Positions 38,093-48,029 of a stretch of 64,000 bases of DNA are shown piece after piece. Origin of the DNA: Pseudoalteromonas piscicida (GTDB taxonomy: Bacteria; Pseudomonadota; Gammaproteobacteria; Enterobacterales; Alteromonadaceae); assembly GCF_000238315.3 (NCBI RefSeq), contig NZ_CP011924.1:2671501-2735500 (forward strand), written 5' to 3'. The position numbers and the translations under genes are program-made. Each line of letters starts with the position of its first letter. Position 1 is the first letter of the stretch. Below the pieces are notes generated by a model that had not been told where the DNA came from, did not search any database, and saw only the letters and a list, made by a program, of their open reading frames with translations.

Positions 38093-38785
38093 ATGCTTAC
38101 GATATCTCAATTACAGTTTACATGGCCTAAGTCGAGCACCCCGGTGCTAACCATACCTAAGCTACATATCGCCCGAGGTGAACACGTGTTTTTACATGGT
38201 CCAAGCGGCAGCGGTAAATCGACTTTGCTTGGATTGATTGCCGGCACCTTAGATTGCCAGCAGGGAGAAATTGAAATTGCAGGTACAAACGCGAGCGCAC
38301 TAAGCCGTGGCCAACGAGATAAGTTTAGAGCCGACCATATAGGTACTATTTTTCAGAACTTTAATTTGTTGCCCTATTTGTCGCCCATTGAAAACGTTAC
38401 CCTTGGCTGCGAATTTTCCAAAAAGCGCAGGCAAAACATTTTCTCACAGAATAAATCGCTTGAGCAGGAAGCCAAGATTCTGCTCTGTGATCTTGGTATA
38501 GACGAGCACACTCAGCAGCGCAGTGTCGCGGAGTTAAGTATTGGTCAACAGCAGCGCGTAGCCGCCGCTCGCGCATTTATAGGCAGGCCCGAAATCATTA
38601 TTGCCGACGAGCCAACCTCAGCCCTCGATGCCGACAGTCGTGATGGATTTATTAAATTACTCTTTAGCCAAGCCGCGGTTTACAGTGCATCTATTCTCTT
38701 TGTCAGTCACGATAAAAGCTTAGCGCCGTTATTTGATAGGCAAATAAGCTTGCCTGATTTACAACAAGGAGCACCGCTATGCTAA
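38093..38785 (+). CDS. ABC transporter ATP-binding protein (LolD/MacB class)
   Basis: ATPase of 230 residues with Walker A GPSGSGKST (residues 36-44), Q-loop at FQNFNLLPYLSPIENV, signature LSIGQQQRVAAARA and Walker B IIIADEPTSALD. It pairs with the FtsX-type permease whose start overlaps its end by seven bases. Such pairs handle lipoproteins, drugs, peptides or metals. The His-rich permease and DUF3299 partner here point to a metal-linked role, as inference. Confidence 0.92.
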   Translation: MLTISQLQFTWPKSSTPVLTIPKLHIARGEHVFLHGPSGSGKSTLLGLIAGTLDCQQGEIEIAGTNASALSRGQRDKFRADHIGTIFQNFNLLPYLSPIENVTLGCEFSKKRRQNIFSQNKSLEQEAKILLCDLGIDEHTQQRSVAELSIGQQQRVAAARAFIGRPEIIIADEPTSALDADSRDGFIKLLFSQAAVYSASILFVSHDKSLAPLFDRQISLPDLQQGAPLC

Positions 38786-40146
38786 TCAAACTTGCGTGGA
38801 AAAGTACGCTAAACCGAAAAGCCAGCGTCGCTCTAACGCTAGTGACCATTGCGATTAGTGTCATGTTACTGCTGTCGGTTGAGCGTGTACGCCAAGACGC
38901 AAAATCCAGCTTTGCGAACACGATTTCTGGCACAGACCTGATTGTCGGCGCACGTACTGGTGATATTCAGCTTTTGCTTTCAAGCGTATTTAGAATTGGT
39001 CACGCCAATAATGCCGTACAATGGCAAAGTTATGAGTACATTAAGGCACAGCGCGGCGTTGCGTGGAGTATTCCCATTAGCTTAGGTGATAGCCACAAAG
39101 GCTTTGCTGTGCTGGGCACAGATGCAAGTTACTTCAGCCATTATCAATACGCTAAAAAACAACACCTCACCTTTGCCGCTGGCCGACCATTTCACAATGG
39201 CAAAGAAGTGGTGCTTGGGGCTATGGTCGCAAAAAAGTTGGGTTATCAGCTAGGGCAAAAAATCGTCATTTCTCACGGTATGGGCAATACCAGTTTCCAT
39301 CATCATGATGACAATCCGCTGGTTATTTCTGGCATTTTGGCAGCCACAGGAACGCCTGTAGATAAAACGCTACATGTGCCGTTAAGTGCCATCGAGAGCA
39401 TGCATAGCTCAGGCCACAGCAAGCCATCTCGAATAGTTGCACGAAAACAAGATGCAACGCACCACGAGCATGAGCATGAGCATGAGCATGAGCATGAGCA
39501 TGAGCATGAGCATGAGCATGAGCATGACAGTAAAAACAATAATGCTCTAGTTCACAACCTCGACTCCAAACCCGGTGATTTAATTGGCTCGACAAAGCAA
39601 ATCACTGCATTTTTACTTGGCTTTGATTCACCGCTCTATACCCTCCAAGTGCGCAGAAATATTAATCAGTATAAAGGCGAGCCTTTGCTGGCAATTATGC
39701 CAGGGGTGACATTAAGAGAATTATGGGAAATGCTAGATATTGTCGAAAAAATCTTGCTTCTCATTACCCTTGCAGTGGTGTTGATAAGCTTGCTCGGCAT
39801 GTTAACCTCATTGCTCGCCACGTTGAACCAAAGGCGTCGAGAACTTGCTATCCTGCGCTCCGTTGGTGCGCGGCCTTGGCATATCTTTACGCTTCTCATC
39901 AGTGAAGCGATTTTTATCACCGTGTTGGGATGTGCTTTCGGTGTAGCGCTTTTCTATGCTCTGCTCATTGCTGCCCAATCCGGCCTACAGAGTCAATTTG
40001 GCGTAGTCCTAAGTATCTCAGCGCTCTCAACCTATGAACTCATGCTACTAAGCGTTATTATAGGTGCAGGTACTTTGATCGGCGCCATTCCTGCCGCCCG
40101 TGCTTATTTTTACTCGCTTGCCGATGGCATGCAAATTAAAACCTAA
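38779..40146 (+). CDS. FtsX-family ABC permease with His/Glu repeat
   Basis: MacB-type permease of 455 residues: TM1 (about 13-34), a large periplasmic domain, then three membrane segments (about 326-350, 371-399, 420-447). The periplasmic domain contains ten consecutive Glu-His pairs at residues 230-249, preceded by His-His, with other His-rich spots (SFHHHDDN). Such tracts commonly bind zinc, copper or nickel. The neighbours are its ATPase and a DUF3299 protein. It resembles transporters linked to zinc in vibrios (zrg-type), but I cannot confirm orthology. Confidence 0.88.
   Translation: MLIKLAWKSTLNRKASVALTLVTIAISVMLLLSVERVRQDAKSSFANTISGTDLIVGARTGDIQLLLSSVFRIGHANNAVQWQSYEYIKAQRGVAWSIPISLGDSHKGFAVLGTDASYFSHYQYAKKQHLTFAAGRPFHNGKEVVLGAMVAKKLGYQLGQKIVISHGMGNTSFHHHDDNPLVISGILAATGTPVDKTLHVPLSAIESMHSSGHSKPSRIVARKQDATHHEHEHEHEHEHEHEHEHEHEHDSKNNNALVHNLDSKPGDLIGSTKQITAFLLGFDSPLYTLQVRRNINQYKGEPLLAIMPGVTLRELWEMLDIVEKILLLITLAVVLISLLGMLTSLLATLNQRRRELAILRSVGARPWHIFTLLISEAIFITVLGCAFGVALFYALLIAAQSGLQSQFGVVLSISALSTYELMLLSVIIGAGTLIGAIPAARAYFYSLADGMQIKT
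39466..39525 (+). repeat. Ten perfect GAGCAT repeats inside permease gene
   Basis: Sixty bases made of ten uninterrupted GAGCAT hexamers encode (Glu-His)10. The unit length keeps frame whatever the copy number, so slippage would change only the length of the metal-binding tract. Long antisense frames over this stretch are artefacts of the repeat. Confidence 0.97.
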
Positions 40147-40156
40147 GAGGATCAAG

Positions 40157-40663
40157 ATGCAGTTAAGCGCACGAACTCACGTTTTTTACTTCATTGCATT
40201 CATCACTGCGATGGTATTCAGTGGTATTGCAAATGCGGCACCACCTAAAGAGATATTCTGGGAAGATTTAATTCCAAAAGGACATGTCCAGATCAGTAAT
40301 CAAGACGCAGCAAGCCATGATGGCGCCGAGCAAAATTGGGTGCAACCTGACTTAGACGCCCCAGTCGTCAAAGAGTTAGACGGTCAACTAGTCAGCTTAC
40401 CCGGCTTTGTTGTACCACTTGAAGGTGACAGTGAAGTGATCACCGAATTTTTGTTGGTTCCCTACTTTGGCGCTTGTATTCACGTGCCGCCGCCGCCACC
40501 GAACCAAATCGTTCATGTCAAAATCAAAGGCGGTGTTCCGATTGAAAGCCTATATGATGCAATCACAGTCAGTGGCACGATTAAGGTTTCTACTTGGAAG
40601 GGCGACATCGCGCAAACAGGTTATATGATGGAAGCCAAAGGCGTCGCGCCATTTGAGCTCTAA
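40157..40663 (+). CDS. DUF3299 periplasmic protein
   Basis: Exported protein of 168 residues with a signal peptide (ending SGIANA). The family core is visible as IFWEDLIPKGHVQI, LPGFVVPLEGD, LLVPYFGACIHVPPPPPNQIV and the C-terminal strand region. It starts at ATG 40157 (GAGGATC upstream); the ATG at 40100 lies inside the permease gene and is rejected. Third gene of the ABC operon, ten bases after the permease stop. Conserved Cys and His in YFGACIHVP could bind metal; this is inference. Confidence 0.88.
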   Translation: MQLSARTHVFYFIAFITAMVFSGIANAAPPKEIFWEDLIPKGHVQISNQDAASHDGAEQNWVQPDLDAPVVKELDGQLVSLPGFVVPLEGDSEVITEFLLVPYFGACIHVPPPPPNQIVHVKIKGGVPIESLYDAITVSGTIKVSTWKGDIAQTGYMMEAKGVAPFEL

Positions 40664-41880: not shown

Positions 41881-42057
41881 ATGATACTTTTGAACCACTT
41901 TAAGACCCATAAAAGCCTTATTTCTACAAAAAATAAAATAAACAGAATACAACTTATTGGCACTAAAAGCGCGAGTCAGGTTAGAGGTGGCAGCACAGGA
42001 AAACAGGTGGATGATCCTAAGCTGAACCAACCGAACTCCGATGATGATGCTAATTAA
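41881..42057 (+). CDS. Small GG-motif peptide P3, 58 aa
   Basis: ATG 41881 follows AAGGA at eight bases. The basic N-terminal half (MILLNHFKTHKSLISTKNKI) is followed by SASQVRGGSTGKQVDDPK and an acidic, Asn/Asp-rich tail. The spacing from GGS to DP is the same as in P2, so the two genes are paralogues with diverged tails. It is too short for most gene callers. It lies 12 bases before the membrane-protein gene, which suggests joint expression. Confidence 0.62.
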   Translation: MILLNHFKTHKSLISTKNKINRIQLIGTKSASQVRGGSTGKQVDDPKLNQPNSDDDAN

Positions 42058-42069
42058 AGGGAATAAATA

Positions 42070-42753
42070 GTGAATAAAACGTATTATTTTGAAATTTTTT
42101 TTGCTCTACTTTGGTGCTTTTTAGCATTCGCACATCATTCTTTCGGGCGCTTCGTTGACATACCTATTTTACTTTTAATTTTATCGTTTACGTTCCTAGC
42201 CAGAGAGCAGTTAAATATTCAACATATTAGTACCTGTATTCTACTGGTTATGCTCATAGAGCTGGCAGGCTTTGAGCTGATATTAGCGAAACTACTAGTT
42301 GATGAAAAACCTTTTTATCAAAATCTAACAATTTATTTACTACAGCTAATATGCGACCTATTTCTATTCTTTTATTTCAAAAATAGAGTTCGCTTATCCT
42401 TATATTATGTTGAACGACGCAACCCTGCTCAGCGTGAATATATCTACATGACACATGCGGATATCTTATTGGTGGGTGTTTTCTTCCTATTTATACTAGT
42501 AGATATAGCTGCTTTTTCAGAGAACATAATACGTAACTTAGAATATTTGGGTATTGAAGAAAGCTTTGCAAAACAATTCTGGCATTGGGGTTTAGTATTC
42601 AATAGTTATCCATATCTAAAATCTGTATTGCTTTCACTCGTCATAACCACTCTATTGGCTACTATCTATATTGAACGTTTTCGTCCTGCGCCAATTAAAG
42701 AAAGTGAAGAAGACTTAACGCTTAAAAAATCCGAGCCACAGCATAGGTCATAG
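42070..42753 (+). CDS. Polytopic membrane protein of small-peptide locus, 227 aa
   Basis: About six hydrophobic segments (from IFFALLWCFLAFAHHSFG to YLKSVLLSLVITTLLATIYI) and a charged cytoplasmic C-terminus. No family recognised. GTG 42070 is preceded by AAGGGA at eight bases. It is similar in size, hydrophobicity and setting to the two membrane proteins at 17546-18647, but clear sequence similarity is not evident by eye. Transport, sensing or immunity for the neighbouring peptides is a reasonable guess. The stop codon sits in a hairpin loop. Confidence 0.72.
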   Translation: MNKTYYFEIFFALLWCFLAFAHHSFGRFVDIPILLLILSFTFLAREQLNIQHISTCILLVMLIELAGFELILAKLLVDEKPFYQNLTIYLLQLICDLFLFFYFKNRVRLSLYYVERRNPAQREYIYMTHADILLVGVFFLFILVDIAAFSENIIRNLEYLGIEESFAKQFWHWGLVFNSYPYLKSVLLSLVITTLLATIYIERFRPAPIKESEEDLTLKKSEPQHRS

Positions 42754-42769
42754 TGACCTATGCTGCTTT
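42739..42769 (+). terminator. Hairpin at the end of the membrane-protein gene
   Basis: A perfect 12-bp stem (CAGCATAGGTCA/TGACCTATGCTG) whose three-base loop is exactly the TAG stop codon of the gene, followed by CTTTT. It would end or attenuate transcription before the downstream Cys-rich peptide gene. Confidence 0.72.
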
Positions 42770-42797
42770 TACCCTAAATCAATTGAAGGAATAAACG

Positions 42798-43010
42798 ATG
42801 GATTTAAAACTGAAAAAAAGCAATTGAAGTCATTAGCAGGTGGTAAGCTAATTTTAGATAACAATAAGACCCGTGAGATTGGTGGTGGTTGTTCCTACTA
42901 TTGTAGTCGCGACTTAAACTGTGACACCGATCGCCTGCCCACGTAAGGCGTTAGCGTGTGTTCCTGAGCCAAATACATTACATTGTGATTGCCCAACCAA
43001 TATATGTTAG
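42798..43010 (+). pseudogene. Frameshifted Cys-rich RiPP-precursor-like gene P4
   Basis: ATG 42798 (AAGGA seven bases upstream) begins MDLKLKK but stops at 42825 in frame. A run of seven A at 42813-42819 lies just before; with one more A the frame reads through to a stop at 42946. That restored 49-residue product has a lysine-rich leader (KLKKKQLKSL), LDNNKTREIGGG, then CSYYCSRDLNC. This resembles precursors of class I lanthipeptide-like RiPPs annotated in marine bacteria. Beyond 42946 another frame continues with ACVPEPNTLHCDCPTNIC to 43010. Either the gene is decayed, or the indels are sequencing errors, or slippage is used. No modifying enzyme is adjacent. Confidence 0.6.
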
Positions 43011-47533: not shown

Positions 47534-47757
47534 AGTCATTCTCAACAATAAGTACCGGCCGAGTGGTATTGGTTTACTCAAGTCTGCCGCAGAGCTAAAA
47601 GCGGGCATTATACCGAGTAACGTATAAGAATACACTAGGGATGAGAATAAGGAAAAGTCGAGGAATAAATTCAGCGTTGTGAGTAACCCAGAAACCTATC
47701 ACTGTGCTAAATTTATTCCTCTAAAACAGAGTGTTATTTTGCCGCGAAAAGCAGCAG

Positions 47758-48029
47758 CTCCTACCAAGGTATTCGCCCAGTAGGAGCGAGTTCACCGCGC
47801 AATCTTTTAACTGCTCGCCGCGTAAAGCATCTCCTACCAAGGCATTCACCCCGTAGGAGCGAGTTCACCTCGCGATCTTTTAACCACTCGCCGCTTAAAG
47901 CATCTCCTACCAATGCATTCACGCTGTAGGAGCGAGTTCACCTCGCGATCTTTTAACAGCTCGCCGCGTAAAGCATCTCCTACCAATGCATTCACCCCGT
48001 AGGAGCGAGTTCACCTCGCGATCTGTTTA
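47758..48029. repeat. Four tandem 73-bp palindromic repeats
   Basis: Units begin at 47758, 47831, 47904 and 47977, exactly 73 bases apart, with small differences between them. Each contains CTCCTACCAA, then GTAGGAGCGAG, TTCACCTCGCGATC and CTCGCCGC, giving a CTCCTAC/GTAGGAG stem and a GCGAG/CTCGC stem. They resemble REP-type elements and occupy most of the 493-base gmk-asnA gap; the last unit runs into the asnA stop codon. The part nearer gmk (47534-47757) shows no gene. Not CRISPR, since no distinct spacers exist. Confidence 0.9.

Follow-up and report, generated by a model that had tools for sequence, protein, structure and literature searches.

A Broken Cysteine-Rich Precursor Gene in Pseudoalteromonas piscicida and a Dispersed Family of Putative Class I Lanthipeptide Precursors

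The Precursor Locus

The window analysed here is the whole 64,000-nucleotide stretch at G000:C1:2671501-2735500 of Pseudoalteromonas piscicida, whose genome consists of two contigs, C1 of 4.25 Mb and a remainder of 1.23 Mb. On the forward strand of the window lies a small precursor gene that is spread over three pieces. A ribosome-binding-site-like AAGGAA (42786..42791), unchanged across all eight aligned loci, precedes the gene start, and the initial frame (42798..42827) encodes MDLKLKKSN before it meets a stop. Translation therefore confirms the first-pass annotation of this DNA, which had noted an ATG at 42798 with a good ribosome-binding site and a stop after nine codons. The run of seven adenines that it had placed at 42813..42819 is likewise present; the alignment shows it to be one base short relative to six intact relatives, and the same run occurs in P. 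sp. S2755.

The second piece (42824..42946) is read in another frame and comprises 40 amino acids, which include IGGGCSYYCSRDLNC. Its alignment to intact homologues identifies it as the remainder of the leader, the GGG and the first three core cysteines, followed by a stop. The third piece (42933..43010) matches the family profile at residues 48-74 and supplies the last five core cysteines and the native stop; the 25 amino acids leading to the stop at 43010 are ACPRKALACVPEPNTLHCDCPTNIC. The second and third pieces together hold eight cysteine codons (3+5), one more than the seven initially counted across the two stretches. At the junction 42934..42935, 11 bases that are found in all seven relatives are absent. 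There is no open reading frame for the full precursor in the window, as the two gaps break the frame.

A hairpin with a 12-bp stem (42739..42765, forward strand, fold z -4.5) overlaps the end of the membrane-protein gene upstream. Across eight loci, six of the 12 pairs are constant, and the other six show a one-sided change or are broken in one or more rows; no pair is changed on both sides. The hairpin was not listed by the terminator scan. At the level of a guess, it could be an attenuator of read-through into the peptide gene.

Intact Homologues in Pseudoalteromonas

A strong match to the peptide profile was found in eight of 108 genomes of the genus, the window genome among them. The homologue occupies the equivalent place in seven of the 107 other genomes. 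Six of these seven copies are intact, with 74 codons and all eight cysteines (L006, L007, L008, L009, L002, which is the same as L010, and L011). The comparison with related strains that had been proposed at the outset thus yields homologues beyond what chance would give. The named carriers are P. flavipulchra NCIMB 2033, P. sp. S2755, P. sp. HM-SA03 and P. peptidolytica DSM 14001.

The setting of the gene is conserved. In all seven relatives, it lies 3′ of the same membrane protein gene, which is broken in one of them (G014), and 5′ of the same RidA-like gene. A haem oxygenase gene in between is whole in five of the seven (G105, G098, G095, G067 and G075) and a remnant in G014, and was not found at the G071 locus.

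In an alignment of seven intact sequences, the eight cysteines and six serine or threonine residues of the core are invariant, and the family carries an IGGG before the core. The dN/dS ratio is 0.09-0.12 in five comparisons against the most distant relative and 0.09-0.50 in nine further comparisons, where the counts are small; one pair is identical. The intact copies in six relatives are under purifying selection.

A protein search with the intact 74-amino acid peptide returned two clusters, of 15 and three member sequences, the legible source names being “hypothetical protein” of Pseudoalteromonas sp. BMB and sp. J010. Pfam and NCBIfam gave no informative family for the peptide, either for its pieces or for the intact homologues, in runs that also covered the neighbours. 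A plasmid search with 2.5 kb of DNA gave no match.

Lesions of the Window Copy

Relative to the intact copies, the window copy carries two lesions: the one-base gap at the A7 run and the 11-base gap after CSRDLNC. The latter directly follows the first three cysteines, lies outside any homopolymer and has substitutions private to the window next to it. As the two gaps sum to a multiple of three, the last piece is back in the frame of the ATG; this frame nonetheless ends after nine codons. With the leader start and the two halves of the core split between frames, no working precursor is expected in the window lineage. Decay, one of the explanations offered initially, is supported by the presence of two separate gaps.

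The copy in S2755 (G105) has the A7 run as in the window, lacks the second gap and keeps the remaining frame intact. Read by eye, its two private coding changes are both synonymous. A further base close to the 3′ end is common to the window and S2755 and absent from the six others. Of 225 sites, however, 11 differ between the window and S2755 and 9 between the window and P. flavipulchra, so that the shared A7 run may stem from common descent, recombination or repeated loss alike. The state of S2755 fits plain decay less easily, and is not demanded by a plain pseudogene reading.

LanB, LanC and C39 Enzymes

The initial statement that no lanthipeptide synthetase is adjacent holds for the locus itself, near which there is none, but was misleading, since a LanB is encoded elsewhere on the same chromosome. 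The window genome has one LanB match and one LanC match. The sole LanB (C1:3188627-3190570) lies outside the window, about 0.47 Mb from the locus. Its neighbourhood at C1:3187559-3195782 contains LanB (both Pfam halves), LanC, a precursor, a C39-ABC protein and an HlyD family protein.

Each of the ten genomes tested has one LanB. Each also has one or more LanC-like proteins, an additional, weaker match being seen in one genome, and one or more C39 domains, of which two genomes have a second. Across the genus, LanB occurs in 51 of the 108 genomes. A single match is present in 47 of these, while G058 and G099 have two strong matches and G079 and G023 extra weak ones.

The Leader Family

The homologues of the window peptide and the precursors adjoining the LanB of the window genome have a common leader plan, LKLNKKxxKxLS...TPQ(I/V)AGG. 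Two precursors of the LanB region start MKLALNKKCIKALSNDSKSIPANMTPQIAGG and, a few kb away, MKLSLNKKKIKALSADKQTVPAVMTPQVAGG; the equivalent in the intact homologues is MDLKLNKKQLKSLAGSKLILDNNKTREIGGG. The leader model A6 matches both the 74-amino acid family and the LanB-linked precursor, and the window's own leader at model positions 7-31 only. Most of the invariant columns are carried by the N-terminal part of the leader. The description of the window peptide as a RiPP-like precursor, with a leader and a cysteine-containing core, is borne out both by the intact homologues and by this leader in common with LanB-linked precursors.

The leader profile was built from 14 leaders that were picked before the genus-wide LanB result was known, and the source genomes of all 14 later proved to be LanB-positive. 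At E 0.1 or better, it matches 52 of the 108 genomes. The leader is present in 51 of 51 LanB genomes versus one of 57 without LanB (Fisher p about 2e-30, in a test that ignores kinship, so that shared ancestry of the LanB genomes can inflate it). The lone exception, G062, lacks LanB and has a single weak match to the leader (E 0.036). Genus-wide, the eight top-ranking matches to the leader all sit in the LanB neighbourhoods of their own genomes. The leader family is thus present in every LanB genome searched (51) and heads the LanB-adjacent precursors.

At the same threshold of E 0.1, a LanB genome has from one to at least 75 leader matches, with a median of 22 and a sum of at least 1357. These are profile matches, and hence candidate genes; the counts for G051, G018, G066, G013, G088 and G121 are lower bounds, 75 of a larger number of candidates having been scored in each. 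The window genome has 23, of which two lie less than 20 kb from LanB, 18 farther along C1 (distances computed with C1 taken as circular) and three on C2. Among 394 genomes drawn evenly across the order, five match the leader at E 1e-4, two of the five being from the genus. The leader looks rare outside Pseudoalteromonas.

A search of the leader against RiPP precursor profiles had been proposed at the outset. For NF038153, the NCBIfam class I leader model, neither the 40-amino acid piece of the window nor three intact homologues gave a match. None of eight other members scored over its cut-off, the one match reaching 13.4 bits against a cut-off of 22. NF038153 is a database model and not a biochemical criterion.

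Cores of the Family

From the loci, 76 peptides were read, and 68 were kept after six with E >1e-5 and two broken ones (the window and S2755) had been dropped. A non-redundant set of 42 of the 68, less than 60% alike, was used for the comparison of cores and leaders. Cysteine makes up 11.8% of the cores versus 0.2% of the leaders in these 42 peptides, a contrast biased toward cysteine in that some loci were retrieved with a cysteine-rich peptide as the query. Threonine accounts for 12.5% of cores and 4.8% of leaders, and serine for 6.9% and 6.8%, respectively. Two or more cysteines are present in 40 of the 42 cores, and none in one. The mean ungapped identity is 0.40 for leaders and 0.06 for cores; in L102, L183 and a few others, the scripted cut between leader and core falls two residues before the Gly-Gly. 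G071 has a LanB-linked leader peptide without cysteine, which was left out of the core count for its E-value.

Some members of the leader family in the window genome are arranged in repeats. At G000:C1:3254772-3255400 (L094, L095 and L098), three tandem precursors without cysteine lie near what appear by eye to be membrane-fusion and ABC transporter genes. At G000:C1:3485202-3486524 (L102 and L103), a precursor is duplicated, with the copies 1.17 kb apart and each accompanied by an apparent cyclic-nucleotide-binding protein, also by eye.

The Upstream Membrane Protein and Other Window Features

The segment immediately upstream (window 41881-42753) holds a second peptide, of GG/DDP type, and a 227-amino acid membrane protein. 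Among eight genomes, the second peptide and the membrane protein's N-half sort into four types: G067/G075/G076; G095/G098; G105/G071, loosely; and G000. Between G098 and G105, the N-half of the membrane protein is 27% identical and the C-half 99%. Identity of the flanking DNA to four relatives is 84-96% in the parts that align, and as low as 76% in shorter pieces. The arrangement is reminiscent of a peptide/receptor or peptide/immunity pair whose cassettes have been swapped, as in the agr types. Across 28 pairs of genomes, the second peptide's identity shows no correlation with N-half identity (rho 0.11, p 0.58) and correlates with C-half identity (rho 0.56, p 0.002). The four-type grouping is therefore the only indication that peptide and N-half vary jointly. 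A fold search with the neighbouring membrane protein (model pLDDT 76.5) gave no match at E 0.001 or better.

Of the 108 genomes of the genus, 45 carry the membrane family. LanB accompanies it in 44 of these and is lacking in G062, and seven LanB genomes lack the family. At G000:C1:3742078-3742722 (L024) and at L029, L031 and L026, paralogues of the membrane protein are found next to long precursors that consist of repeating GG...DDPK-like units; these are possibly multi-core precursors. A tandem array of membrane-family proteins lies at G000:C2:421686-426502 and occurs in several relatives as well. At G014:C152:10517-11196, the broken membrane protein, with five stops in its first part, is found beside an intact cysteine-rich peptide.

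Elsewhere in the window, positions 38093-40663 encode, consecutively, an ABC ATPase, a MacB/FtsX-like permease containing a long His-Glu repeat, and a DUF3299 protein; a role in metal handling is a guess. On the minus strand at 47721-47995, overlapping short frames with recurring wording (MNALVGDAL...) are probably a short tandem or interspersed repeat.

Interpretation and Competing Explanations

The locus is best explained as a pseudogene belonging to a class I lanthipeptide system in which few enzymes serve many dispersed precursors and the intact copies are modified in trans, a reading to which a probability of roughly three in four is given. Modification in trans is suggested by the plan of the leader, by the set of LanB, LanC and C39 enzymes, by the Gly-Gly site and by the cysteine- and threonine-rich cores; the action of LanB on unlinked precursors is itself inferred from these. 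The leader of an intact copy would be bound by the remotely encoded LanB, which would dehydrate serine and threonine residues of the core. LanC would then close thioether rings with the cysteines, and the C39 transporter would cleave after the Gly-Gly and export the product. As the cores differ freely, one enzyme set could serve a scattered library of precursors.

An alternative for the intact members is that they are Gly-Gly leader peptides exported by a C39 transporter and held by disulfides, with no lanthionine, and that LanB acts on its neighbours only. The eight cysteines are an even number, one core in the family has none at all, and the leader of the 74-amino acid peptides is more divergent than the LanB-linked leaders (7.8e-12 vs 6.4e-17), all of which would suit such peptides, as would the failure of the intact copies to match NF038153. 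Leader and LanB nevertheless go together in 51 of 51 genomes, the leader being nearly absent elsewhere, and the invariant columns fall mostly in its N-terminal part. This weighs against the disulfide alternative, although LahT150, a C39 domain, is reported to act on one leader even when 10 to 30 residues are missing from its N terminus (PMC6363468). Disulfide-held peptides are accordingly considered unlikely, while remaining the most serious competitor.

The remaining alternatives concern the broken state of the window copy, and each is far less probable. Were the A7 run a programmed slippage site, a working peptide would arise in a small share of the products, and the S2755 copy, with the run and an otherwise intact frame, would suit this as a possibility. 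Slippage is unsupported for the window copy, where the second gap stops translation after three of the eight cysteines regardless, and six of the seven relatives lack the run and need no slippage. The runs cited for efficient slippage are usually longer than seven adenines. Slippage at this run is therefore rated improbable, and an error in the sequencing or assembly of the window genome marginally more so. One of the two gaps does sit in a homopolymer, where an indel of this kind had been suspected, but the independent assembly of S2755 shows the identical run, and the 11-base gap is non-homopolymeric with window-private substitutions beside it. The least probable reading is reinitiation: the TGA of the nine-codon frame overlaps a TTG start (42824), and the TTGA could yield a leader-truncated peptide. 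A peptide made in this way would miss the LNKK stretch of its leader and, in the window, would also be without five of the eight cysteines.

Relation to Known Systems and Significance

Class I lanthipeptides are known from the genus. Pseudorosins A-C of Pseudoalteromonas flavipulchra S16, made with the dehydratase PsfB, are reported to belong to this class (PMC12819058). Their source is of the same species group, and P. flavipulchra NCIMB 2033, taken here to be G067, carries an intact 74-amino acid gene and one LanB. PciA and PciC of P. citrea DSM 8771 have given a class I lanthipeptide produced in E. coli (PMC9993889, consulted in part). The likeness lies in class I machinery within the same genus; that system is presented as a gene cluster, whereas the set described here is dispersed.

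The closest counterpart in layout is that of the prochlorosins with ProcM and of SyncA with SyncM. In the excerpts consulted, one promiscuous synthetase serves 29-30 precursors, a number that reaches 79 in one strain. Many precursor genes lie far from the synthetase gene, and the leaders have a Gly-Gly motif and can be removed by a C39 protease (PMC7268733, PMC12328550, PMC6363468, PMC9872173). The comparison is one of layout, LanB, LanC and C39 being the enzymes searched for in the present genomes. The prochlorosin and SyncA systems are class II (LanM), with Nif11-family leaders, and belong to marine cyanobacteria, whereas Pseudoalteromonas has class I LanB and LanC. The literature searched, itself seen in part, showed no account of unlinked class I precursors in Pseudoalteromonas; the 2023 ACS Chem Biol work on pseudorosins may cover some of this ground.

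The broader proposal, favoured with somewhat less assurance than the reading of the locus, is that the genus runs a class I counterpart of the prochlorosins. This would comprise, usually, one LanB/LanC/C39 set per genome and up to about 75 or more precursors dispersed on the chromosome and a second replicon, with a fixed leader that NF038153 misses (11 intact members tested) and varying cores rich in cysteine and threonine. The window member would be dying in a birth-and-death turnover of the family. Taken alone, the window finding is an ordinary pseudogene, and the dispersed class I precursor system is the interesting part.

Genome mining by cluster finds a RiPP through its neighbouring enzyme, and unlinked precursors are therefore missed. 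If one LanB set does serve dozens of scattered precursors, the range of cores that a class I dehydratase tolerates would become directly testable, since the P. citrea system works in E. coli in the part of that study consulted (PMC9993889), and the genus would hold a large unread set of lanthipeptides.
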